From positions 1-32,116 of the IMG/VR virus record IMGVR_UViG_3300047658_000008: a DNA stretch of 32,116 nucleotides. The stretch is one strand, 5' to 3'. Below the pieces are notes generated by a model. The model had not been told where the DNA came from, made no database searches, and was given only the letters and a program-made list of their open reading frames with translations. The stretch is from a virus. This document shows positions 12,282 to 30,446 of the stretch, piece by piece; the stretch's first letter is position 1, and the number at the start of each line of letters is the position of its first letter. The translations under genes and the position numbers were made by a program.

Positions 12282-12911
12282 TTAAGCTACGAGTTCGATG
12301 GAAATCTGACTCAGTACAACTACGTCACCGGCGTGACCTGCGGACAGGGTGCTGGTAACGAAGAAGTTCAAATCCGACTCGCCCTGAAGACCCGTCACGG
12401 TAGTAACGGCTGAACCGGCAACAAGGGTGTTGTTGACCTGTGCGGCGGACTGGGTACCCTGAAGAGTAACCGAAGTCGAAGATGCGGCAACAGCCTGAAG
12501 CGTTGCGTCGAGCGTGAAGCTGCCCGTCTTGCTGTTGACAGCTACAGCGCCCGTGGTTGCGATTGCGGTAGCGCCAACAAAGCTGGTCGCGGTTAGAGCC
12601 GCGATGGAAGCCGCTGGAACCTGATAGAGGTTGATGGTCAGGTTCTCAGTTGCGCCCGTGGTGGCGTAGCCAAAGAGACGAACGCGGAAGGGGAGGCCGG
12701 TGTTGACCAGCGTGGCCAGCGAGTAGGAACCGCCGACAAAGATGCCGGGAGTGCCAAGGGCAACAGGCAGCACCTGTGCAGCAATAGAGGCGATGGCATT
12801 GCCGTTGACTTGGAACGCGGTCTCCACGGTGGATGTGCCGGTGGCGTTGGCTGCGAGGGTCTTTTCGATGGAACCCGCTGTTTGTACTGCGATGGTAAGT
12901 GCTGTGCTCAT
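12282..12911 (-). CDS. Probable head-associated protein (decoration-type)
   Basis: This 209-residue protein is very rich in Ala, Thr, Val and Ser with few charged residues, and alternates hydrophobic residues as expected for beta structure (FRVRLFGYATTGATENLTI, TSVTLQGTQSAAQ). No signal peptide or cysteine is found. It follows the capsid gene, interrupted only by the HNH gene, and ends the head operon at a terminator. AAGGA lies eight bases before the ATG. A capsid decoration or minor head protein is inferred from composition and position. Confidence 0.5.
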   Translation of the reverse strand: MSTALTIAVQTAGSIEKTLAANATGTSTVETAFQVNGNAIASIAAQVLPVALGTPGIFVGGSYSLATLVNTGLPFRVRLFGYATTGATENLTINLYQVPAASIAALTATSFVGATAIATTGAVAVNSKTGSFTLDATLQAVAASSTSVTLQGTQSAAQVNNTLVAGSAVTTVTGLQGESDLNFFVTSTLSAGHAGDVVVLSQISIELVA

Positions 12912-12915
12912 ATTT

Positions 12916-13515
12916 TTAATCCTTCTGGTACCCGTTCAGGTACGTGATTGCTGCTTGAAGCGTTTCCGTGCTGTCGTAAAACAAACCAAGTCCCCTGTTA
13001 CAAGTTTCACAGAGAAGACCGCGAACGCACTTACCACAAGTCATTCGTGCATGGCTGTCTATCAAATCGGGGCAACAAGAGTGGTCATGGTCTATGGCCA
13101 ACCGCTTGCCACTTTCAGGACGCTTGCAGATGGCACAGACGCCGCCTTGTTTCTCAAGCATCTCCTGATACTTTTCGGTCGTAATACCGCGACGACCGGG
13201 ATGATACTTTGCGTAATACTCATCTCGTTTTTCTGGATGAGTAGCACGCCAACCTTGTTGCGTTTCAAGCTTGCGTGCCTTGCGTTCCGCTTCACTTTTC
13301 TTGGGAGCTAATGTTGCTTGTAATGCGGCTCCCGTTAATGTCATCCGGCCTTCGGCGTAATTCCTTTTTAGGGTTTCACTGGCCTTTTGATTTGCTTCAT
13401 CTGAAGGAGAATCTGTTCTCCTTCTGTGTCGTCCTTCAGCGTAGGCTTTCTTGAGAGATTCACTTACTCTACGTTTAGCTTCTTCTGAAGGTACATAGCC
13501 CTTAGAGTTACCCAT
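12916..13515 (-). CDS. HNH endonuclease (endonuclease VII type) with NUMOD-like N-terminus
   Basis: This 199-residue protein is a free-standing homing-type DNA endonuclease. The catalytic part has CAIC at 127-130, DHDH at 142-145 and CETCN at 169-173, the order seen in the endonuclease VII/HNH family: two CxxC pairs binding zinc around a His-bearing beta-beta-alpha core. Two repeats at the N-terminus (SEEAKRRVSESLKKAYAEGR at 10-29 and a similar KASETLKRNYAEGR) are NUMOD-like DNA-binding helices. It sits between the capsid gene and its follower without disturbing either, as mobile endonucleases do. Its ribosome binding site lies inside a strong hairpin (13522-13560). Confidence 0.9.
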   Translation of the reverse strand: MGNSKGYVPSEEAKRRVSESLKKAYAEGRHRRRTDSPSDEANQKASETLKRNYAEGRMTLTGAALQATLAPKKSEAERKARKLETQQGWRATHPEKRDEYYAKYHPGRRGITTEKYQEMLEKQGGVCAICKRPESGKRLAIDHDHSCCPDLIDSHARMTCGKCVRGLLCETCNRGLGLFYDSTETLQAAITYLNGYQKD

Positions 13516-13571: not shown

Positions 13572-14570
13572 TTAAACTGCCGAGACCTCGGCACGAACTC
13601 GACGAAATCCGGGCGTGCCATTCGTATTCGGGCGTGCCACAACTCCGAGGAACCAATCGTAAGAAACGATTGCACGGGTCTGGAGAGTTGGGTTGCTGAG
13701 GTCAATATCGTTGTCGCCAAAATACTTGACATTGACTTTGAAGTTCGCGGAACGTGGAACCTTCTGCCCCAGAAGCTCTGAAGCAAGCATCGCTTCGCGG
13801 CCAACGGTATAGCACGCATAGCCAGTCTTGCCCGTTGAAGGGTAATTGGCATACGTAGGCACGGTCGGTGTGCGGATGATGCGGCAACCAGCCCATTCAA
13901 GAACCTGATAGCCACGGTTGCTGTCGCTCTTGAGCACTGAAGCACCGCTCTCGCTACGCTTCAAAGTATCGACTGCCGAACCTGCACTGTTGTCAGACAT
14001 GAAGTCATAGGACATGAAGGGATGCAAAACGGTTGTGTACAGACCACCATCACGACCGGGTACAGCATTGCCAAGCAACTGGGACTCACCTTTACGGATG
14101 GTGTTGCTGAGCAAGAACTGGTTGTCGGAAAGGTCGATACGGGCCGCACTCTGAGCAGCGGACGCTGATTCGAATGCGTTGAACGCAACCGTGTTCGCAG
14201 TGAGGGCACCGCGATAACTCAGGTTACGAGCGGCATCAAGAGTGATGTCGGCGAGGAACATGGTCGCTGCAACGTTATCGATACCAAGCCAATCGGCATA
14301 CTCATCTGCATACGCATCGGAGAAAACCTGAGACAAGGACATCGAAGGAGGCGGAACAGCCTCAGACACAGGACCAGCAGCACCGCTGAAGGGTTGCTGA
14401 CCATAGAACTGAATCGTGCGGCCAGAGCGACGAGCCAGCGGACGGAAGTCGCAAAGTTCTTCGAGTGCTGGTGTATTGTACTGCCATTCCAAAATAGCAG
14501 TGCGGTCATACGCAATCTGCGGGAAGGCTGCAAGGTTGGAGGATTGAACTCCCGGTGACAAACTTGGCAT
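13572..14570 (-). CDS. Major capsid protein, N4-gp56-like
   Basis: This 332-residue protein forms the head shell. Its N-terminus (QIAYDRTAILEWQYNTPALEEL) is followed by RRSGRTIQFYGQ and by TTVLHPFMSYDFMSD, GCRIIRTPTVPTY, ACYTVGREAMLAS and TRAIVSYDWFLGVV. These follow the block order of the HK97-fold N4-gp56 group of capsid proteins. It comes right after the scaffold gene and is in the usual place after terminase and portal. GAGG lies eight bases before the ATG. The capsid assignment is firm from order and composition; the family assignment is by eye. Confidence 0.8.
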   Translation of the reverse strand: MPSLSPGVQSSNLAAFPQIAYDRTAILEWQYNTPALEELCDFRPLARRSGRTIQFYGQQPFSGAAGPVSEAVPPPSMSLSQVFSDAYADEYADWLGIDNVAATMFLADITLDAARNLSYRGALTANTVAFNAFESASAAQSAARIDLSDNQFLLSNTIRKGESQLLGNAVPGRDGGLYTTVLHPFMSYDFMSDNSAGSAVDTLKRSESGASVLKSDSNRGYQVLEWAGCRIIRTPTVPTYANYPSTGKTGYACYTVGREAMLASELLGQKVPRSANFKVNVKYFGDNDIDLSNPTLQTRAIVSYDWFLGVVARPNTNGTPGFRRVRAEVSAV

Positions 14571-15984: not shown

Positions 15985-18171
15985 TTAAATATCTCCCGTC
16001 GTTCCTGTTGACCCGCCGCCGACGAAGTTCGCATCGGACTTCTGGAACTGAGCGCGGTCAGCACGGTTTAAGGCATCCTCTTCGACCGTGTGGCCGTGCT
16101 TCTGGTCTTGTGCGTTCGACTTGAGCGTTGCTTCACCCGACTTCAACAACAAACGGTTCTCCGCTTGGTTGTTGTCGATTTCTTTCTTCGACTCGGTTTG
16201 AAGACTCAACATCTTCTCCGCAGGAGGAGGCGTTTGCTGGCTTGCAGCATAACGCTGCTTGTCCTCATCATTCATAGGTTGAATGACATTCTCGCGGTAC
16301 GGAAGCCCAGTGCTGTCGATGAGGGCTTTGTAAAATTCAGCGACATTCAACTTCAACGCCTGAACCCCGAGGAGTTCAACCGTGCCGGGGCTTTGAATCA
16401 TCGTTTGAATAAACCCGATGAGTGAATTCAACTGTGTCCGGGCACGGAGCCTTGTTGCTGCTGAGACAGTCACAATGTACTGACCATTAGCAACCGAGAG
16501 CGGGTCAATCTTCTTGACGCTGGCGGAGAGTTCATCGCTGAGCCACTGCTTGATTTGACTCGGCTTCAGCTTGTGATTTTGTTCGATGATGTATTCGATA
16601 AAGGGCACAAAAATGTTATCCGCAATTTGGTCGATGAGGTCAGTCGTTTTAACTCCCTCACCCGCGATTACCGCGTTAGCAGAAGCTGGATTTCTGAGGT
16701 CACCGGGCTTACCGGCGTTCTGTCCCGTGGCCGAGATACCGGCACCGGAGATGGCTACCGCCCACGACTTCACTTGTTCAATGACACCAAGTGGCTCAAG
16801 GCCGATGGTGTTACGTGTCAAAGGTTCAATCTTCTTTCCGGGGTCGGACTTCATAATCTTGCCGGGGAAAATCCACTGCGCCTGAGCCGAGTTATTCATA
16901 CCAGCATCCGTGCTGTAGACACCCATCAAATTCAGATTCAAATCATCGAAAAATGCGTTCACAATTCCCTGCCCGATGCGCTGAAAATCTGTCAACCAAA
17001 ATCCGAGACCGTAGCCGTAGAAGCTGTCAGGGGCCTCACGAAACACGAAGCTGAGAAATGGAATCTTAGCCATATCATGTGGTTCGTTGTAGAGAACATG
17101 CTGGCTCTCCAAAATCATGCAGTGGCGATATGGTGTCCAGTAATCAAATACTTCCCAATTCTTCGCCAGCGGGTCAGCTTTGGAGTGGTCAGCATCTTCC
17201 GGATAGGCTTTCTGCGGTGTCACGGTCTGCTGAAAGATGGAGTTACCTGAGTTACCGCCCTGCGTATCGAGTACATTGGAGGCCGTCGAATCCACCTTCA
17301 TGGGCGTGGTAAGGGCGATAAGCTGCTCACGAGTGGGGATATTGAACCCATCGGTATCACGGAACTTGTCGAGGTCATAGGTGTTGGGATAAATCAACCG
17401 GCCAGCCCATCCAGCCGTCCAGATTTCACCACGGCGGCAAGCAGGGTCTACACGTAGACGGCGTATCGGCACATGTTCGAACTTCGCTTGATTGAATTCG
17501 ATGATGTGGTCGGTGTAAGTCTCAGTATTGTCGATGTCGCCACCCTGAATTGTGAGTGAACCACCGGCCACAGCCACACTGGTGTTCTGGTGCTTGTTCC
17601 TTATCTTTTTGACATCCTGTTTGTACTGTTCCCATCCGAATGTGGCGACACCCGTGCCATAGAGAAGGCCATCGTAGGCAACGTGGCGCATTTCCTGTTT
17701 GAAAGCAGTTCCACGGAACCCGCACTTTTTGAATTGGGCTCTAACCAAAGCTGTTTCAGCCGCTGCGGTGTCTATATCTGTTCCAGAGGTTGGGTCAAGC
17801 ATAAAAGGCTGGAATCCGGCGAACAAAGACTCTTGAACGACGCCTAGCATCGAATAGAAATGCTCTGCAAGGATGGGCAATCCAAGGTGGGAACGGTATT
17901 GGTCACTTCCCTTCCATTTGACTGGCTCTACGTGGGCGCGAAGCATCAATTCAGCGATATTCCACGACCCGATGAGGCCGCGTGATGCCTCAAATGCCTC
18001 TGAAAGGAGCCGATTCTGCGTGGCTTCCTTCAACATACTTAAATCGCTGCGGTCTTGGTCAGGGAAACCAACATCTCGCTTCTCAATGGGGAGCGCCAAT
18101 TCGCCGGGTGTGACTGCACCGGGGAGGTCGAGAAGGCGAATCTGTGCTAGGTTGTCAAGTTCGAGTGCCAT
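15985..18171 (-). CDS. Portal protein
   Basis: From the ATG at 18171 (AGAGGA five bases upstream) the protein has 728 residues, close to the size of P22-type and N4-type portals. It forms the dodecameric ring at one vertex through which DNA is packaged. The clip/wing-like region, the helix-rich core (FWLTDFQRIGQGIVNAFFDD, about residue 405) and the GQNAGKPGDLRNPASANAV region near 505 fit a large podovirus portal. The C-terminal ~80 residues are Gln/Lys/Glu-rich (PPPAEKMLSLQTESKKEIDN), like the barrel helix of P22 gp1. It follows terminase directly. A TTG at 18195 is a less likely start. Confidence 0.85.
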   Translation of the reverse strand: MALELDNLAQIRLLDLPGAVTPGELALPIEKRDVGFPDQDRSDLSMLKEATQNRLLSEAFEASRGLIGSWNIAELMLRAHVEPVKWKGSDQYRSHLGLPILAEHFYSMLGVVQESLFAGFQPFMLDPTSGTDIDTAAAETALVRAQFKKCGFRGTAFKQEMRHVAYDGLLYGTGVATFGWEQYKQDVKKIRNKHQNTSVAVAGGSLTIQGGDIDNTETYTDHIIEFNQAKFEHVPIRRLRVDPACRRGEIWTAGWAGRLIYPNTYDLDKFRDTDGFNIPTREQLIALTTPMKVDSTASNVLDTQGGNSGNSIFQQTVTPQKAYPEDADHSKADPLAKNWEVFDYWTPYRHCMILESQHVLYNEPHDMAKIPFLSFVFREAPDSFYGYGLGFWLTDFQRIGQGIVNAFFDDLNLNLMGVYSTDAGMNNSAQAQWIFPGKIMKSDPGKKIEPLTRNTIGLEPLGVIEQVKSWAVAISGAGISATGQNAGKPGDLRNPASANAVIAGEGVKTTDLIDQIADNIFVPFIEYIIEQNHKLKPSQIKQWLSDELSASVKKIDPLSVANGQYIVTVSAATRLRARTQLNSLIGFIQTMIQSPGTVELLGVQALKLNVAEFYKALIDSTGLPYRENVIQPMNDEDKQRYAASQQTPPPAEKMLSLQTESKKEIDNNQAENRLLLKSGEATLKSNAQDQKHGHTVEEDALNRADRAQFQKSDANFVGGGSTGTTGDI

Positions 18172-18204
18172 AGTTCCTCTATCTATGCGGGTCAAAGTCC
18201 GCTA

Positions 18205-18223: not shown

Positions 18224-19963
18224 TTAGTAAGTGCCGGGGATTCTTGTGTCATACCCAACATCTTCCGGTGGAGCATTCAACCTCCGGATAAATGCCAGCG
18301 GGGAAATGCCCTGCGGTTGAGGGAGGGCATCCTGTGCGAGACCCGTGGGAGCTTCACATACGAATCCAAGGCAGTCGGCAAAGTCATCATGACGACCGAG
18401 CTTCGGCCACCGTTTTAACTGTGTCGTGAGTTGGTCGTAACCGGGTATATGCCCGTAAATCCAGAGACGACGTTGTGCAAGCACACCTTTGATGGCTCCG
18501 ATGCGTACCTTCTTGGCATCCTTGTTGTTGCTGCCCTTCAGCCATTCAATCGGGAGTTTTTGGACATTGTGGTCCCGAGCAAAGATGTCAAACACCGTCT
18601 GAAATGTCGTCCACGCGGGGATACGCTCAAGCCAGACAATTCCGGGGCGGTGTTTCAAAATCAGGGTGAACAATTCGTCGGACATTTTCATTGCGTCCCA
18701 TTGCCCATAGGCACAGTCCACGACGTAAAGTTGTCCAATCCAATAGCGGACGACCAGCAAGACCGTCATATCGCGTTTGTCGTCGCCCACATAGCTGAGG
18801 TCTCCCATGATGAAACAAGGTGCCTGTAGGGCGGTTGGATACTGCTCTTGGTGGAACACCGTCTGTGCCCCAAGCAACTCATCCGTGAAGGTCTGGTCGC
18901 CTTCCGCGATGGGGTTATTTTCATATTGGCAAGCGAAGAACTCAGTGCCGATGCGGATGCGCTCCGCTTGTAAAAACTCGACACTGTGACCCTCTGTACG
19001 CCCGTCCTTGCAGCGGAACCTCGGGAACAATACTCCGATGGCTCCGGAGTCGATGAAGTGCTTGCACAGGCACGCTGAGGCAGCGCAGGGGTGCTCAATG
19101 TAGTTCGAATCGAAGTCATGCTCCACATCTTTGTGGCCGCAGACTTTGCAGATTTTTACCCAACAAGACTTAATCGAAATAATCCATGGGTCGGTGCCGA
19201 GTTCGGCTAACTCCAACTTTGCGAGGTCTTGAATCTCTTCGTAAAGGTCTCCGAAGCTGTAGCGAGTTCCAGTGACATACATGAATCCATCTGGTGCCAA
19301 CAGGGGGCAGATGTCTCGATAAGCCTGAATGCACTTCTGAAGTAGCTTGATGGAGGAGTAGTTACCGTCGTTTACCAAGTCATCCGTGAAGATAACGTCG
19401 AAGTGCATGGACGCTTTTGTCGAACGGGCGGTCGAAATCATCATGGTGGGTTCGGCGAACGTGGTGTTCGCCCTACACGGCACCGTGAACTGTGACATGT
19501 TCCCGAGCTTGTCGCCAACGAACTCGGGGAATAGCTCTCGCAGCTTCTTCGGCGGCGATTCAAAGAACTTCTTGACGCGGCCAAGTTGGAGCATGGCGAG
19601 AGTGTCGCTGCCGGACAAAAAGCAGATTCTGATGTCTTTGTAGTTGAGAATGAGTTGAATGATTTCAACGATGATGGATGAGGTTTTGAAGGTACCCCGG
19701 CTCCATAGAATCATGCGCTTCTTTTTTACTAAGTCGAGGTCGTAGAGGGGCACGCCGGGATTCTTCTTGAGGAACTTTTCAAAGAGCCACTTATGGGGGA
19801 TTTCCTGAAAATCCATCTCCATGACTTCGACGCCGAGATACAGGTGGTCGGTGAGGGCGCGGTAACGCTCCTCCGCCCACTTGGTCTGTGCGGCCTTAGA
19901 AAGTTTTTTGTAAGCCGTGACAAATCCGGGTGGAAAGTTTGTCATGTCCACTTGGTAGTCCAT
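18224..19963 (-). CDS. Terminase large subunit with a zinc-binding insertion
   Basis: This 579-residue protein is the ATP-driven packaging motor and headful nuclease. A Walker A-like SRGTFKTS is at 88-95, Walker B FDVIFTDD at 188-195, and the coupling motif YVTGTRYS at 229-236. The C-terminal RNase H-like nuclease has MGDLS (acidic Asp 388), WLERIPA (Glu 446) and HDDFAD (525-530). Between motor and nuclease, residues ~272-301 hold CKVCGHKDVEH, then HPCAASACLCKHF, six Cys/His residues that could bind zinc. Such an insertion is not part of the core terminase fold. It is preceded by the small terminase candidate and followed by the portal. Confidence 0.93.
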   Translation of the reverse strand: MDYQVDMTNFPPGFVTAYKKLSKAAQTKWAEERYRALTDHLYLGVEVMEMDFQEIPHKWLFEKFLKKNPGVPLYDLDLVKKKRMILWSRGTFKTSSIIVEIIQLILNYKDIRICFLSGSDTLAMLQLGRVKKFFESPPKKLRELFPEFVGDKLGNMSQFTVPCRANTTFAEPTMMISTARSTKASMHFDVIFTDDLVNDGNYSSIKLLQKCIQAYRDICPLLAPDGFMYVTGTRYSFGDLYEEIQDLAKLELAELGTDPWIISIKSCWVKICKVCGHKDVEHDFDSNYIEHPCAASACLCKHFIDSGAIGVLFPRFRCKDGRTEGHSVEFLQAERIRIGTEFFACQYENNPIAEGDQTFTDELLGAQTVFHQEQYPTALQAPCFIMGDLSYVGDDKRDMTVLLVVRYWIGQLYVVDCAYGQWDAMKMSDELFTLILKHRPGIVWLERIPAWTTFQTVFDIFARDHNVQKLPIEWLKGSNNKDAKKVRIGAIKGVLAQRRLWIYGHIPGYDQLTTQLKRWPKLGRHDDFADCLGFVCEAPTGLAQDALPQPQGISPLAFIRRLNAPPEDVGYDTRIPGTY

Positions 19964-19973
19964 GACAAATGTC

Positions 19974-20531
19974 CTAACTGAAGAGAGTTACCTGAGCCTT
20001 CGAACCCGTCGAGGATGTGTCGATGAAAATACGGCTGGCGTCCACATTCTGTGCCGCGTTCTCAGGTCCGCCGAACCAGATGTTGTTCTGAGCGCCACTC
20101 ACCCAAAGCAACTGTGTGGTGTACCGGGTTACGCTCACATTGCCGTCGCCAACATAGATGTAGGAGGCCGCGTTGCCCTTGTCGGGCTCGATACGCACGC
20201 CGCGAAACTTTTGGGCGGGGTCGGGCGCTGTGTTACCGGCGTCGGCGGTTGAAGTAACATTGGCGTGGGTTGTTGCGAAAGAGAAGGACAAAGCAGCGGG
20301 GTTGTTTGCCACCGAAGTTACGGTCAGACCGTTGAAATAAGTCGCGGTCGTAAATCCCCACAAGGTTACTTGCTGGCTTTTGTTGTAACCGATGTTAGGA
20401 AGAGAGGCCAACACAATGGTGGCCACACCATTCAGGATGGAGAATGAGACAGCGGCAACTGGGGTGCCGCTATAAATCGGAGTGGGTGTTCCAGCGGTTG
20501 CACTGACGGCTGCGATGGTCTGAGGAATCAT
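19974..20531 (-). CDS. Small virion-type protein with an Ig-like module
   Basis: This 185-residue protein is low in charge and beta-rich. Residues ~65-101 (YFNGLTVTSV, then FATTHANVTSTADAGNT) resemble the modules in the large tail protein at 651-687 and 768-802. Residues 108-150 contain FRGVRIEPDKGNAASYIYVG, a pattern found in small capsid-exposed proteins. It lies inside the packaging block, before the large terminase. A head-surface or fibre protein is inferred. Confidence 0.5.
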   Translation of the reverse strand: MIPQTIAAVSATAGTPTPIYSGTPVAAVSFSILNGVATIVLASLPNIGYNKSQQVTLWGFTTATYFNGLTVTSVANNPAALSFSFATTHANVTSTADAGNTAPDPAQKFRGVRIEPDKGNAASYIYVGDGNVSVTRYTTQLLWVSGAQNNIWFGGPENAAQNVDASRIFIDTSSTGSKAQVTLFS

Positions 20532-20536
20532 TGTAT

Positions 20537-20650
20537 TTATGCCTTTACTTTCTTTTTGAAAGGTAGCGCCAAGTTAATTGGTTTCTTCGGCTTGTCAGCC
20601 GGTTCGGATTTCTTAATAAGCCCTGCGAGGGCGGAACTCAAATTTGCCAT
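20537..20650 (-). CDS. 37-residue lysine-rich peptide gene
   Basis: From the ATG at 20650 with AGGGAG about eleven bases upstream, the peptide is MANLSSALAGLIKKSEPAD followed by a KKPINLALPFKKKVKA tail. The tail is strongly basic. It is five bases upstream of the next gene and 13 bases after TerS, so it fits an operonic gene. The function is unknown; a nucleic-acid-binding or assembly peptide is possible. Confidence 0.55.
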   Translation of the reverse strand: MANLSSALAGLIKKSEPADKPKKPINLALPFKKKVKA

Positions 20651-20663
20651 AGTGGGGAACTCC

Positions 20664-21236
20664 CTACTTATCACTTTCAAAGTCAGATAAGTCGAATTTG
20701 TCCGACTCCTTGATGACCTTGGGGCGTCCTCGTTTTCCTGCTCCAACTACATATATGGTGCCGTCTGCCCGTTTTCTCGTGCCTCGCCCGATGGCCATAT
20801 CTATTTGCTTTTTCAAATTTCTGGTATCCACTGTTTTGTCTGCAAGGATGGGCAAGCCTATTTCCTTGGCAATTTTTATCGCCTCCAACAGGGGGCTGGT
20901 TTTCCAACCCTTGACTTCGGCGTAGAGGGTGTAGGCACGAAGCTTCACCGGGTCGATTTTTCCTTTGGCGATGTCTCGCACCAGCCGGTGCAGGAATGCC
21001 TGTTGCGGGTCGTCATTGAAGTGTGCGGCCACAGCCATCTGAACTTTAAAGCGGCCAAACACCGCGTAACTCATCAACAAGGCAACGTGGTCGTTGGCGC
21101 ACGGATAAGCCGTCCTGATGGCGTTTATCTGGTCGTAGTTATTGCTGATGAACGTGGCGATGCACAGTTTTTCCTTGGCCGTGCAGCACTGAAACTCGGC
21201 GGTCTCTGCGAGTTGTTCGAGAGTGAGCTTAGGCAT
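20664..21236 (-). CDS. Candidate small terminase subunit
   Basis: This 190-residue protein starts eight bases inside the groES end and lies two genes before the large terminase. The N-terminal ~60 residues (LTLEQLAETAEF, TAKEKLCIATFISNNY, INAIRTAYPCANDHVALL) form helices with the spacing of a terminase small-subunit helix-turn-helix that recognises packaging DNA. The C-terminus holds KRGRPKVIKES, an AT-hook-like segment, and an acidic tail DKFDLSDFESDK that could contact the large subunit. The assignment comes from position and helix pattern, not from a firm family match. Confidence 0.6.
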   Translation of the reverse strand: MPKLTLEQLAETAEFQCCTAKEKLCIATFISNNYDQINAIRTAYPCANDHVALLMSYAVFGRFKVQMAVAAHFNDDPQQAFLHRLVRDIAKGKIDPVKLRAYTLYAEVKGWKTSPLLEAIKIAKEIGLPILADKTVDTRNLKKQIDMAIGRGTRKRADGTIYVVGAGKRGRPKVIKESDKFDLSDFESDK

Positions 21237-21525
21237 TGTCTTTTACGACCTTTCCGAGACACTCGCCCTCTTTAAGGAGAAGAAACTCAATGCCTTCCAA
21301 TCTCATGGGGATGCCGCTATACATTCCTCGTGCTATCAAATCCCCCTTGCTAACTCTCAGGGGACGAAGAGAACCGTCCTCTTTGATGTAGCCCTCACCC
21401 ACGGCAACAACAGAAGAAAACAGCACGTCCTCTTTGCTTGTTTCAGGCAAGATAATCCCGTCAATAACCTGTTCGGTGGTAACGTCGATAGCCAGAATCT
21501 GGTCGTAAAGTGGGATGAAACTCAT
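21229..21525 (-). CDS. groES: GroES co-chaperonin
   Basis: This is a 98-residue Hsp10-family lid for the GroEL ring, with the usual family length. Conserved blocks include PLYDQILAID (5-14), the mobile loop with GIILPETSKED (23-33), SSVVAVGEG (37-45), DGSLRPLRVSKGD (50-62) and LKEGECLGKVV. The ATG at 21525 has AGGAG six bases upstream and matches the family N-terminus. An earlier ATG would only add a few unconserved residues. It overlaps the GIY-YIG stop by four bases and the TerS start by eight, so it is co-translated with packaging genes. Confidence 0.93.
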   Translation of the reverse strand: MSFIPLYDQILAIDVTTEQVIDGIILPETSKEDVLFSSVVAVGEGYIKEDGSLRPLRVSKGDLIARGMYSGIPMRLEGIEFLLLKEGECLGKVVKDNA

Positions 21526-22043
21526 GCAGTCTCCTGACAGTAGAGACAAGATGGATGAATCAGTCCTCTACCTACGTGCCAATACTTGTGCCCCCCTGCG
21601 TTGTGAATTCCCATTGACCCTTTTCCCTTCACCTTCATAAGGTGTGCTGCCAAGGCGGCTCTGTGGGATGCCGAATGGGGCACACCACGACGCTGCCTGC
21701 TCATCAGTTGCTTGGTCTCTGGAGAAAGAGGTAACCCCTTGCGGTCTCGGTTCATCTGCGCCAAGAGAGGGTGTTTGACTCCTGCCGGTCCGTCGCCTCC
21801 ATCAGTCAAATTACGAAGACAGCCGGTTCCTAAATCTTTCCTACCATAACGTTCGATAAGTTTTCGTTCTGCATCAAATGCTTCCGCCTCAGATTCCCAA
21901 TATCTGAACACAATGCGTGCCCTATCTTTTGGACGACGTAGTGCATGTGCAGCACTGGTAAACCCACGGCCACCCTTTCCTTTACCGACGTAATACGGTG
22001 TGCCGTCTTCACGGCACCACAGGTAAGTATAGAAGTAACTCAT
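21522..22043 (-). CDS. GIY-YIG homing-type endonuclease
   Basis: This 173-residue protein is a DNA endonuclease inserted between groEL and groES. The GIY-YIG domain covers residues ~1-95, with TYLWCREDGTPYYVGKGK as the GIY...YIG strands, an Arg-rich helix, a Glu-bearing helix (AERKLIERYG) and LTDGGDGPAG. Residues ~95-140 (RDRKGLPLSPETKQLMSRQR and RRGVPHSASHRAAL) are NUMOD3-like DNA-binding repeats. The stop and start overlaps with its neighbours are four bases each (ATGA), so the insertion kept translation of both chaperonin genes coupled. It is probably selfish rather than part of chaperonin function. Confidence 0.9.
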   Translation of the reverse strand: MSYFYTYLWCREDGTPYYVGKGKGGRGFTSAAHALRRPKDRARIVFRYWESEAEAFDAERKLIERYGRKDLGTGCLRNLTDGGDGPAGVKHPLLAQMNRDRKGLPLSPETKQLMSRQRRGVPHSASHRAALAAHLMKVKGKGSMGIHNAGGHKYWHVGRGLIHPSCLYCQETA

Positions 22044-23659
22044 CGTGAACCCCTCTGGATAGCCGCTTCTATTTCTTCCTTGGGTTCAACGTCGAGACAC
22101 TCAGTGAGAAGTAAAGTACCCGCCGTGGCTGTGGCGTTCTTGAGAGCCTCGATAACCACTTTTACTGGGTCTAAAATTCCACGCTCAATCAGGTTAGTGA
22201 ACTCATTGGCACGGGCGTCATAGCCCCAGTCATACTTAGGGTCAGGAAACATATAGAACGGATGTTCAATTATCTTGAGTAAAACCATCACAGGGTCTTC
22301 CCCGGCGTTCTTCGCGATCTGTTTCAAAGGCTCGACACATGCCTGTGAAACCACGGTCAGGCCGGGGTTTGAAGAGAATACCCGTGCTTGTGCTTTGAGG
22401 AGGGCGAGTCCCCCTCCGGGAACGCATCCGGACTGAATGGCACAACGGACAGCGCCAGCGGCGTCGTCAAAGCGGTCTTTGCGTTCACGCATCTCGGCAT
22501 TGGTGTTGCCGCCGACACGAATGAGAGCTATGCCGGTTGTGAGTTGTGCGAGGCGACGTTCAAGCCATGCCTTGTTCACGCCATCAGCCGTTTCCATCTT
22601 GGTTTTGATTTCGCCGACACGGCTGGCGATACTCTCCGGAGTGCCATAGCCGTCGATGACCGTGGTGGTGGAATCGGTGACCACGATGCGGCGAGTCTGT
22701 CCGAGGTGGGAGAGGTTGGCGGACTCCAGCTTGATACCGGAATCATCCATAATGGCCGTGCCACCTGTGACGGCGGCGATGTCACGAAGCAAGTCTTTAC
22801 GACGTTCCCCGTAGGCTCCGGACTTGACCACGACAATGGGTGCTTGAGCACGGATGCGGTTGACTACGAAACACGCCAGTCCGTCCTGCTCAATGTCCCC
22901 ACAGATGACCAGTAATGGCTTCCCTGTCTTGGATACCTGTGCCAACAAAGGCGCGATGCTCTTGGCGGTGCCGATGCGTCCCTCGTACAGGAGAACGAAG
23001 GCATCTTCGTATACCGCCTCGAAACGTTCGAGGTCATTGGCGAAGGAGGCAGAGAGAAACTCCCCGGAGATGAACTCTATGCCGTTGGTGATAGTAAGGT
23101 CGGTAAGTATAGTACCCGACTCCTCCACGGACACCGCACCTTCCACACCGACAAGGGCGAACGCCTCGCAGATGATGTCGGCCAAAGCTTGGTCGCCATT
23201 GGAGGCGATATACGCTATTGCTGAAGTCTCCTCGGGGGTAGTCACCGGGACGGCCATCAAAGTAAGTTGCTCCACAATGAGAGCGGCGGCTGAATCCATC
23301 TGGAGTTTCAATTCCCATGGACTGGTACCGGCTTCGATGAAGTTGACCCCGGCATGACACATGGCCTGTACCAACGTGGTTGCGGTGGTGGTGCCATCTC
23401 CAGTTGCTTGAACGCAGCGGTTTGCTGCTTCACGGGCTAAGTCGGAGCCGATTTGCATCCGGGGGTCTGACGGGTTTACCGAGTTCGCAACTGTCACGCC
23501 ATCTTTTGTGGTGATGGGCGGGAGTCCTAACAGCCGACGCCCGATAGCGACGTGACGACCTTTAGGCCCGAGCGTGACCTTCACCGCATCCGCCAAGTAA
23601 TCGACCCCGGCGAGGATGGAGTCACGTGCTTCGGTTCCGTAATAGAGATTCTTAGCCAC
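22040..23659 (-). CDS. groEL: GroEL chaperonin, phage-encoded
   Basis: This 539-residue group I chaperonin folds proteins inside a double ring capped by GroES. ATP-site and ring motifs are present: LGPKGR at 30-35, TKDGVTV with Asp 53, GDGTTTAT at 87-94, and RFDDA with GGG at 415-417 (equivalent to E. coli D52, D87 and D398). The apical domain (~190-370) keeps FLSASF, GKPLLVICGD and GERRKDLLRDIAAVTGG. The C-terminus lacks the usual GGM repeats and ends LDVEPKEEIEAAIQRGSR. The start is GTG after AAGG. It lies in the packaging operon with GroES. It is complete, so probably active, and probably serves virion proteins. Confidence 0.95.
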   Translation of the reverse strand: MAKNLYYGTEARDSILAGVDYLADAVKVTLGPKGRHVAIGRRLLGLPPITTKDGVTVANSVNPSDPRMQIGSDLAREAANRCVQATGDGTTTATTLVQAMCHAGVNFIEAGTSPWELKLQMDSAAALIVEQLTLMAVPVTTPEETSAIAYIASNGDQALADIICEAFALVGVEGAVSVEESGTILTDLTITNGIEFISGEFLSASFANDLERFEAVYEDAFVLLYEGRIGTAKSIAPLLAQVSKTGKPLLVICGDIEQDGLACFVVNRIRAQAPIVVVKSGAYGERRKDLLRDIAAVTGGTAIMDDSGIKLESANLSHLGQTRRIVVTDSTTTVIDGYGTPESIASRVGEIKTKMETADGVNKAWLERRLAQLTTGIALIRVGGNTNAEMRERKDRFDDAAGAVRCAIQSGCVPGGGLALLKAQARVFSSNPGLTVVSQACVEPLKQIAKNAGEDPVMVLLKIIEHPFYMFPDPKYDWGYDARANEFTNLIERGILDPVKVVIEALKNATATAGTLLLTECLDVEPKEEIEAAIQRGSR

Positions 23660-23962
23660 TTAGTTGACCTTGTGGATGCTTGTGGGTTTATCCCCGTAGA
23701 ATTCCCGTCGTTCGAAGGTTGCGTCCTGTGCAGCGGCGGGGAGTTCGAGAGCATCGTTGGTGAGAAGTTCGATAGCACAATTCTTGTTGCAAGCAATCTT
23801 GGCGAGAGGGGCGATTTCTTCGCCGATGAGATGTTCCTTGATGACGGTGTACCAGCCACAGGCGGCTTGAAGCTGTTCCGGGGTTACTGGCTGGACGAGT
23901 GCGACGATAACGCCGCAGTTATCACAGACGCGAGTTACAGTGATGCTTTGAGTTTGACCCAT
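23660..23962 (-). CDS. Small zinc-ribbon protein
   Basis: This 100-residue protein has CDNC at residues 13-16 and CNKNC at ~58-62, a pattern that can bind one zinc. It starts with MGQTQSITV, nearly the same as the MGQTQSTTF start of the next gene, at a TAATG overlap with it. The rest contains an acidic helix. It is directly upstream of groEL. The function is unknown. Confidence 0.5.
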   Translation of the reverse strand: MGQTQSITVTRVCDNCGVIVALVQPVTPEQLQAACGWYTVIKEHLIGEEIAPLAKIACNKNCAIELLTNDALELPAAAQDATFERREFYGDKPTSIHKVN

Positions 23963-24162
23963 TACTTTTTCTCCTTGTGTGCTTCAGCGTGTGCCTTGTA
24001 TGCTTCAACGCGGTCAACCCCGGCAAAAATCCCACGGGTATAGGCTTCAAAGACGCAGCGGTTGTGGTAACCCTCGCTATCCTTGTTTGGGTTGTAGAGC
24101 AGGTCAGCTATCTTGTTGAGTTCGGGGGTATCAGGGAAAGTGGTGCTTTGGGTTTGACCCAT
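23962..24162 (-). CDS. Small helical protein
   Basis: This 66-residue protein begins MGQTQSTTFPDTPELN and ends in a Lys/Glu/His-rich helix (RVEAYKAHAEAHKEKK). GGAG lies about nine bases before the ATG. Its N-terminal seven residues resemble those of the neighbouring zinc-ribbon gene, suggesting an old duplication or a shared leader. It has no cysteine cluster. No function can be assigned. Confidence 0.5.
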   Translation of the reverse strand: MGQTQSTTFPDTPELNKIADLLYNPNKDSEGYHNRCVFEAYTRGIFAGVDRVEAYKAHAEAHKEKK

Positions 24163-24163
24163 G

Positions 24164-24412
24164 TTAGTTACTCCAAAATGAAAGCCACCAGACATAGAGC
24201 CTGTGGAGGATGGTTGGGGGTTGAGGGGGTGCCGGGGGTGCCGGATCGTGGGTGATCTTGAAAACTTCGCGGCCTTGGGAGTTGAAGATGAGTTGAACAA
24301 TCGAACCGTTCACCTTGCCGCCGATGATAAGAAAAGCTTCGCCGCCGCTAACCTCAGTAACGGTGAACCCTTCGGGAGGACAGTACGTTTGGTTGATGGA
24401 TTCGATTCTCAC
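24164..24412 (-). CDS. Small protein with a C-terminal aromatic tail
   Basis: This 82-residue protein starts at a GTG overlapping the stop of the upstream gene (GTGA). It has a hydrophobic beta-like middle (GEAFLIIGGKVNGSIVQLIF), a proline run (PAPPAPPQPP) and a hydrophobic Trp-rich end (LHRLYVWWLSFWSN). The end could be membrane-attached, but no complete membrane helix is certain. The function is unknown. Confidence 0.5.
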   Translation of the reverse strand: MRIESINQTYCPPEGFTVTEVSGGEAFLIIGGKVNGSIVQLIFNSQGREVFKITHDPAPPAPPQPPTILHRLYVWWLSFWSN

Positions 24413-24654
24413 GGCTTGACCTCGTACAGGGGCTGGCCGGGAACCTGAGAAGCCTCAGGCCAGACGGCGGAAGTTGGGGAGGGAAGATAGGAATTGAAGG
24501 GCAGCGCGTCGAGATACTCGCTGGAGGGGACTACCTTGGTGACACCCTTAGTCCAGTTATCGAGGTACTGTTGACGAGCCCCCTCGGGGGAGTTGCCCCA
24601 TGCGTAGGTGTACCGGGTTCCGTCCATAATCCAAATGACGTATGAGTTGGGCAT
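24409..24654 (-). CDS. First gene of the chaperonin-packaging operon
   Basis: From the ATG at 24654 (AGGAG five bases upstream) it encodes 81 residues: MPNSYVIWIMDGTRYTYAWG, then a loop with NSPEGARQQYLDNWTKGV and a Pro/Ser-rich end. A longer frame begins at 24741, but its extra codons lie inside structured element A, so the later start is preferred. The gene is the first in the operon after the control region. The function is unknown. Confidence 0.55.
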   Translation of the reverse strand: MPNSYVIWIMDGTRYTYAWGNSPEGARQQYLDNWTKGVTKVVPSSEYLDALPFNSYLPSPTSAVWPEASQVPGQPLYEVKP

Positions 24655-29788: not shown

Positions 29789-30382
29789 TTACAATAACTT
29801 TGCCCACCGCTGCTTTTTCTCGAATGTGACGGGAGTTATCTCATGCCCGTTTGGTCTGTTAGTCCGCTTTCCTTGTGGGGTTCCACCACACCCGGTTTTC
29901 TCCAATACCCACCCTGCTCCCTTGAGGCTTATTCCCGGCTCGGAATCTAAGATATAGGTTTGAATCTTCGCATATCCCATCGCTGCTGCGGCACGGGTGC
30001 AAGCGGCGTAAAGCATACTACAGACGTTATCCGTACCGTCGCTCACGAGTCGAGCTACCTCGATAGTCATCCCGTCGTCGAGGTGGCGGGAAGCCGGCCT
30101 CATACAGATTGCTGCTCCCACTAGCTTGCCTTCCTTGGAAGCCCCGATGGAAAACTTAGCAACACGTATGGGAGAATGGTGACGATGGAGCGTGGACACA
30201 AGCGCATTCGATTGCCATAAGTGGAGCGGTACCACTTTAAGCTTTCCAGCCTGTCTTATGGCTCGTGCGGCTTTTACTTTTTGCCGCTGGCGATATGCTC
30301 GTTGGGCGGCAGCATGGTCCTTGTGGATACGGGGACGCCCAACTTTGCGTTTGATGGGTGATTCTATGTTATCGTCACCCAT
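29789..30382 (-). CDS. XF1762-like protein with AT-hook
   Basis: From the ATG at 30382 the protein has 197 residues. The first 45 are basic (IKRKVGRPRIHKDHAAAQRA), including an AT-hook GRPR. The rest follows the phage XF1762 family: VAKFSIGASKEGKLVGAAIC, RPASRHLDDGMTIEVARLVS, SDGTDNVCSMLYAACTRA and SEPGISLKGAGW. This pattern looks like an acetyltransferase-type fold, but no acetyl-CoA motif is certain. DNA binding through the hook and an unknown activity are expected. The N-terminal hook is probably a separate addition. Confidence 0.7.
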   Translation of the reverse strand: MGDDNIESPIKRKVGRPRIHKDHAAAQRAYRQRQKVKAARAIRQAGKLKVVPLHLWQSNALVSTLHRHHSPIRVAKFSIGASKEGKLVGAAICMRPASRHLDDGMTIEVARLVSDGTDNVCSMLYAACTRAAAAMGYAKIQTYILDSEPGISLKGAGWVLEKTGCGGTPQGKRTNRPNGHEITPVTFEKKQRWAKLL

Positions 30383-30446
30383 CAAAGTATCATCCCTTCT
30401 GCCGTTCGGCGTTCGACCTGTAGATTGTTAATACTCACGTGACGAG

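Follow-up and report, generated by a model that had tools for sequence, protein, structure and literature searches.

In phage T4, the major capsid protein gp23 requires GroEL together with the phage-encoded gp31, GroES cannot substitute for gp31, and gp31 is able to serve all essential folding in E. coli (PMC3012670); gp31 has no roof loop (PMC6318259). The chaperonins of phages EL, OBP, and AR9 function without a co-chaperonin (PMC9598537, PMC7185714). Group I chaperonins are also encoded by virioplankton and soil viruses, often as deep clades and in many cases with both subunits, and the carriers are reported to have genomes of >70 kb (PMC8390657, PMC9611531). Here we analyzed the groEL and groES genes of a 32,116-base IMG/VR virus record (IMGVR_UViG_3300047658_000008; the whole record is referred to as the window), which lie in a head and packaging gene cluster encoded entirely on the minus strand. 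As with T4 gp31 and RB49 CocO, the lid is phage-encoded and linked in concept to head morphogenesis, but the present phage also encodes its own GroEL, and its GroES retains the roof loop. The EL, OBP, and AR9 chaperonins are likewise GroEL-like and phage-encoded, yet far more divergent and active without a co-chaperonin, whereas the present groEL is adjoined by a conserved groES. In contrast to the virioplankton and soil carriers, the nearest relatives of the window have genomes of ~40 kb.

Judged from its sequence, the window encodes an intact group I GroEL and GroES, well above chance, in agreement with the original prediction of a complete GroEL with conserved ATP-site residues and a complete GroES. 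GroEL matched PF00118 over residues 22–520 (172 bits, cut-off 34.3), phrog_5725 (1.7e-118), and NF009487 (502.8 bits, cut-off 352). Its score for the equivalog model TIGR02348 was 493.4 bits, below the cut-off of 582.1, and the protein is a divergent GroEL, not one of the cellular housekeeping type. The catalytic and nucleotide-binding residues T30, G32, K51, D52, D87, G88, T89–T91, D398, and D495 were all retained, and the AlphaFold2 model (predicted local distance difference test score 88.9) has the three-domain GroEL fold, with GroEL 4aaq as the best PDB match (template modelling score 0.87). GroES exceeded the PF00166 cut-off of 21.1 bits, scored under the cut-offs of the NCBIfam GroES models, and contains the mobile loop DGIILP with a hydrophobic I-x-L tripeptide (GIxLP type). 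Its true start is the ATG at 21525 (MSFIPLYDQ); the open reading frame (ORF) as listed reaches 21549 with a TTG start.

The pair shares both subunits, the catalytic residues, the mobile loop, and the fold with bacterial GroEL/GroES. It differs in its low identity (~42% at best), in the order of the genes with groEL first, in the sub-cut-off TIGR02348 score, and at several structural positions. Apical residues were changed in the window (Y203S, L234A) and in the sister clade (Y199L, V264K/N); these positions are known to bind clients and GroES. The inter-ring contact positions K105, E434, E461, S463, and V464 were also changed, the segment corresponding to E. coli 429–435 is deleted, eight amino acids are inserted near 474, and the protein has no GGM tail. 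Because the inter-ring contacts are altered, a single ring, or an unstable double ring, is possible. Alignment with Salmonella GroES placed a roof hairpin in the GroES of the window's clade, and the roof loop is absent from the GroES of a clade of 97-kb relatives and of record G059. In this respect, the sister lineage resembles T4 gp31 (PMC6318259).

The proposed association of the chaperonins with packaging genes was borne out by the relatives. An IMG/VR scan with the large terminase (terL) yielded 29 loci, and groEL and groES were found in the same 13 of these records, in all of them on the terL strand and, with the exception of record G016, 1.3 to ~11 kb upstream of terL. A second scan with a capsid alignment returned 63 loci. 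Among 41 further records (40 capsid relatives and one hit of a GroEL scan), 10 contained groEL and the same 10 contained groES, while one additional record had a groES fragment at its contig end. In every record with the small terminase gene (terS; ~20 records), groES adjoined terS and groEL lay upstream, once with an endonuclease gene between groES and terS. The large terminases of related records with the pair were as little as 44–50% identical. Where the pair is lacking, the contig mostly stops short of terS, and the near-complete records all carry the pair (five of ~96–100 kb and four of ~35–44 kb). G016 is probably a complete genome of ~39.5 kb, because its 210-bp ends match (99.5%); here terL was relocated downstream of the capsid genes (L073:8164–10641), and groEL, groES, and terS are still together. 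The terL of this nearest 40-kb relative also carries an intein-like insertion at EFFAC/QYENN.

The phylogeny of the pair points in the same direction. All 17 family GroELs formed one clade with support of 100/100 in a careful tree from which long branches had been removed, and of 100 in a wider quick tree; the 21 family GroESs likewise formed a single clade (support 98), although their alignment is short and weakly resolved. The closest bacterial GroEL found was ~42% identical. GroEL distances correlated with those of portal (Mantel r = 0.97), GroES (0.91), terS (0.91), and terL (0.89), which is comparable to the correlation between terL and portal (0.90). Taken by itself, the 97-kb clade gave weaker GroEL correlations (0.34–0.51) in the same direction. 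No compositional difference was seen, with a guanine plus cytosine (GC) content of 55% compared to 50–57% in the rest of the window. The order groEL-groES was found in 17/17 family records; the reverse order was present in all 63 other sampled viral loci (the two genes adjacent in 62 and separated in one) and in 65 of 68 bacterial loci, and the Flavobacterium elemo phages also have groEL first. The simplest reading of these sequence comparisons is that the family ancestor acquired the pair once, long ago, and that vertical descent together with the packaging module followed. The packaging association is ancient and conserved across an uncultivated family of tailed phages.

The family appears uncultivated, because a search of GenBank phages gave no relative of its capsid protein and only weak ones of terL. 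A capsid-alignment scan of genome contigs revealed no relative, and a GroEL scan for a host returned only GroELs of bacteria and metagenome-assembled genomes (MAGs), with ≤39% identity and a scan pattern biased to Planctomycetes. Some members, at least, may be temperate, since an integrase is encoded by 8 of 15 relatives. A strong integrase match near the contig end of a 39.8-kb relative (G031:C1:289–768) may mark a provirus whose integration site and host could be recovered.

Phage chaperonin pairs had been called rare in the original prediction, which proved overstated: GroEL matches were obtained in 221 of 50,697 GenBank-derived phage records, some of them host contamination (such as the Acinetobacter and Salmonella records), one IMG/VR GroEL scan gave at least 564 viral relatives, and both genes are already present in named phages (Flavobacterium elemo and immuto phages, Cellulophaga phi38:1). 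Other phage groEL genes were located beside DNA polymerase and clamp loader genes, in replication or metabolic modules, or near tail-fibre genes, and the chaperonin of Vibrio phage Va1 lies between tail sheath and tail tube. The elemo phages (~60 kb) share both genes and their order with the window, but their pair stands alone near tail-fibre genes, away from packaging, and is 30% identical. An earlier case of groEL close to packaging genes is Siphoviridae sp. ctf1B273 (MW202497.1, 42.9 kb, metagenomic), in which it is located in the interval from terL to portal and upstream of the capsid gene. That GroEL is 29% identical, however, no GroES is annotated, and glycosyltransferase genes flank it on both sides; it is likely an independent case. 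A second, large viral chaperonin group in our sample differs in having groES before groEL and, at the loci examined, in its position beside DNA polymerase and clamp loader; it is represented by L201:3840–4259 and the L204 region, and L201 also carries an Hsp20-like gene. In a Flavobacteriaceae MAG, a 9-kb contig (L244; record G073, contig C9) encodes a second, divergent GroEL; this is possibly a phage contig binned there. Chaperonins of phages have been described before, also as pairs, and are not very rare. New are the conserved packaging coupling, the roofless GroES in a sister lineage, and the carriage by 40-kb genomes; no description of a family-wide groEL-groES-terS unit was found in the limited selection of literature searched.

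On balance, we consider it probable that the window encodes a group I chaperonin system which was acquired once, was retained in the head and packaging cluster, and folds late phage proteins. The genes would be co-expressed late, GroEL would form heptameric rings and bind unfolded phage proteins, and these clients would be enclosed and folded with ATP and the phage GroES. Folding of capsid or packaging proteins seems to us the best explanation, and the likeliest clients would be head and packaging proteins that are made late and in abundance. Foremost among these would be the 36-kDa major capsid protein, as T4 gp23 needs GroEL and gp31 (PMC3012670), followed by terminase or portal. The phage would thereby gain a chaperonin suited to the proteins it encodes and rely less on host GroEL/GroES, as T4 partly does by means of gp31. 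By this analogy with T4 gp31/GroEL, the dedicated folding machine for capsid or terminase that had been proposed for this locus is plausible. The altered apical residues and the roofless GroES of the 97-kb clade and G059 would fit such a specialized machine. A stronger version, in which the chaperonin system is part of the packaging machinery, with a remodelled client surface, a roofless lid in one lineage, co-evolution with the head and terminase module, a requirement for folding of the capsid or terminase, and head assembly independent of host GroEL/GroES even at ~40 kb, is possible but doubtful.

Several observations weigh against a role in capsid or packaging-protein folding. The capsid is 78% identical across clades (66–89% across the family), compared to 41% for GroEL, 30% for GroES, and 29–51% for the other shared proteins measured; because the capsid is conserved while GroEL and GroES diverge, no co-variation of client and chaperonin is visible. 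A capsid monomer of 36 kDa fits the cage of ordinary host GroEL/GroES, and there is therefore no obvious need for a special one. The window's own GroES keeps its roof, unlike gp31, and the position in the late cluster could reflect timing only. The terS assignment in the window depends on its orthologues. Furthermore, the pair is missing from the sequenced part of G005, which extends 7 kb upstream of terL, and from that of G054, which has no recognizable terL and extends 14 kb upstream of the capsid gene, and synteny in records that are cut short gives no judgement either way.

The kept roof, the capsid of only 36 kDa, and the missing co-variation make a general late-infection chaperonin a serious rival, albeit in our view an unlikely one. 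It would raise total folding capacity or act as a stress buffer for many proteins of phage and host, and its place in the late cluster would be a matter of timing. The intact catalytic residues and mobile loop agree with this explanation, as do the general folding capacity of T4 gp31 (PMC3012670) and the placement of chaperonins by DNA polymerase/clamp loader, tail sheath/tail tube, or tail-fibre genes in other phages. The fixed link to terS and packaging, which persisted in G016 after terL had moved, and the altered apical residues of both clades suggest specialization instead.

Improbable, in our judgement, is that the two proteins form no encapsulating pair at all, GroEL being an open, possibly single-ring holdase and GroES having another role. 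The changed inter-ring positions, the deletion, the insertion, and the missing GGM tail would allow this, and the chaperonins of EL, OBP, and AR9 need no co-chaperonin (PMC9598537). However, a GroES with its mobile loop was kept in every examined relative that reaches groES, and the window GroEL resembles bacterial GroEL far more than that of EL, to which it gave only a partial match over 21% of the query. The chaperonins of EL, OBP, and AR9 have reportedly been studied mainly with endolysin.

That host chaperonin genes were captured recently, as passengers or auxiliary genes, is hardly credible: phages do take host genes, and the GroELs of some GenBank phages (Vibrio and Bacteroides phages) fall within bacterial branches, but the ~42% best bacterial identity, the deep single clades of both trees, the matching GC content, and a GroEL divergence that tracks portal and terL rule it out here. 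Phylogeny and synteny thus gave the opposite of a pair placed within one host genus, recently acquired and without a packaging link, which the original prediction had named as its refutation; an ancient single capture remains as the origin of the pair.

This family is a direct handle on why phages carry a whole chaperonin and on what it folds. With the pair fixed beside terS and the head genes, a near-constant capsid, a varying chaperonin, and both roofed and roofless GroES, it provides a natural experiment on whether a folding cage is tuned to its viral client, a proposal already made for T4 gp31. The family further shows that genomes of ~40 kb can afford a chaperonin pair.

Table 1. Genes of the chaperonin and packaging cluster in the window, in order of transcription (HMM, hidden Markov model).
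Feature	Position (strand)	Description	Evidence
Small ORF upstream of groEL	24164..24412 (-)	Same place in relatives	Family HMM
Small ORF immediately upstream of groEL	23660..23962 (-)	Same place in relatives of both clades	Family HMM
groEL	22040..23659 (-)	539 amino acids, GTG start, 57.3 kDa, group I chaperonin	PF00118, phrog_5725, model, residues
GIY-YIG homing-endonuclease-like gene	21522..22043 (-)	173 amino acids, between groEL and groES	phrog_314 5e-12, phrog_15526 3.7e-21
groES	21229..21525 (-)	98 amino acids	PF00166 53.5 bits, phrog_3188 4.4e-14
Small terminase-like gene (terS)	20664..21236 (-)	190 amino acids	Matches of orthologues
Basic 37-amino-acid ORF	20537..20650 (-)	Between terS and 185-amino-acid gene	Read from sequence
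185-amino-acid conserved protein, no assigned function	19974..20531 (-)	Between terS and terL in relatives	Family HMM, 18 records
Large terminase (terL)	18224..19963 (-)	579 amino acids	phrog_38 1.6e-34; 29 viral relatives
Portal, SU10-like	15985..18195 (-)	736 amino acids	PF23899 7.5e-17, phrog_1216 3.9e-13
Major capsid protein, N4-gp56-like	13572..14570 (-)	332 amino acids, 35.9 kDa	phrog_1357 major head protein 5.3e-13

The features of the cluster are listed in Table 1; two further genes lie between portal and capsid. An overlap of genes through terminase, portal, and capsid, as originally predicted, was found in part. The stop of groES and the start of terS overlap by 8 nucleotides, and overlaps also join groEL to the GIY-YIG-like gene and the latter to groES. 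Beyond terS the genes are tightly packed, mostly with small gaps (13, 5, 10, 28, and 80 nucleotides, besides two abutting or overlapping pairs). Gene-to-gene coupling to packaging holds for the groEL-groES-terS unit, except that the GIY-YIG-like gene interrupts groEL and groES here. The capsid gene does belong to the same cluster, but ~6.1 kb downstream of terS, separated from it by the 37- and 185-amino-acid ORFs, terL, portal, and the two ORFs. Its product scored 37.8 bits against TIGR04387, under the cut-off of 60. A promoter and terminator consensus scan of the cluster, a weak type of scan, showed no clear break. Three other IMG/VR contigs, of 15.8, 8.7, and 6.2 kb, match the window at 100% identity, and the two longer ones span the arrangement from groEL to terL; together with the same order in ~20 divergent relatives, they rule out an assembly artefact.

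The assignment of terS as small terminase-like was made via its relatives. Orthologues matched phrog_51 terminase small subunit (9/11, best 9.8e-07) and PF03592 (7/11, best 3.2e-04). The window protein, 24–45% identical to these orthologues, itself gave no match to small-terminase families and none in a Foldseek search against the PDB.

The GIY-YIG-like gene shares one ATGA with the end of groEL and another with the start of groES. In a sister record (G031/L261), groEL and groES are joined by a single ATGA, which corresponds to an empty site. Similar copies were found at different junctions of relatives' clusters (L065:10293–10931 and 12895–13425, L069:18422–18940, and L269:7980–8510), as if the packaging cluster were a repeated homing target; in G019, another copy lies between groEL and groES. 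Although the gene had no Pfam match, its position and family suggest a mobile element that inserted between two translationally coupled genes and left the coupling unbroken.

Both small ORFs upstream of groEL keep their place in the two lineages, and one of them has cysteines in paired motifs (CDNC...CNKNC), reminiscent of small zinc-binding proteins. An Endonuclease VII-like gene directly follows the capsid gene (12916–13515), and such genes are scattered in relatives, once between groES and terS (L272:16885–17412). A Mom-like DNA modification protein is encoded at 29789–30385 of the window (phrog_1384 2.4e-29; NCBIfam XF1762 family).

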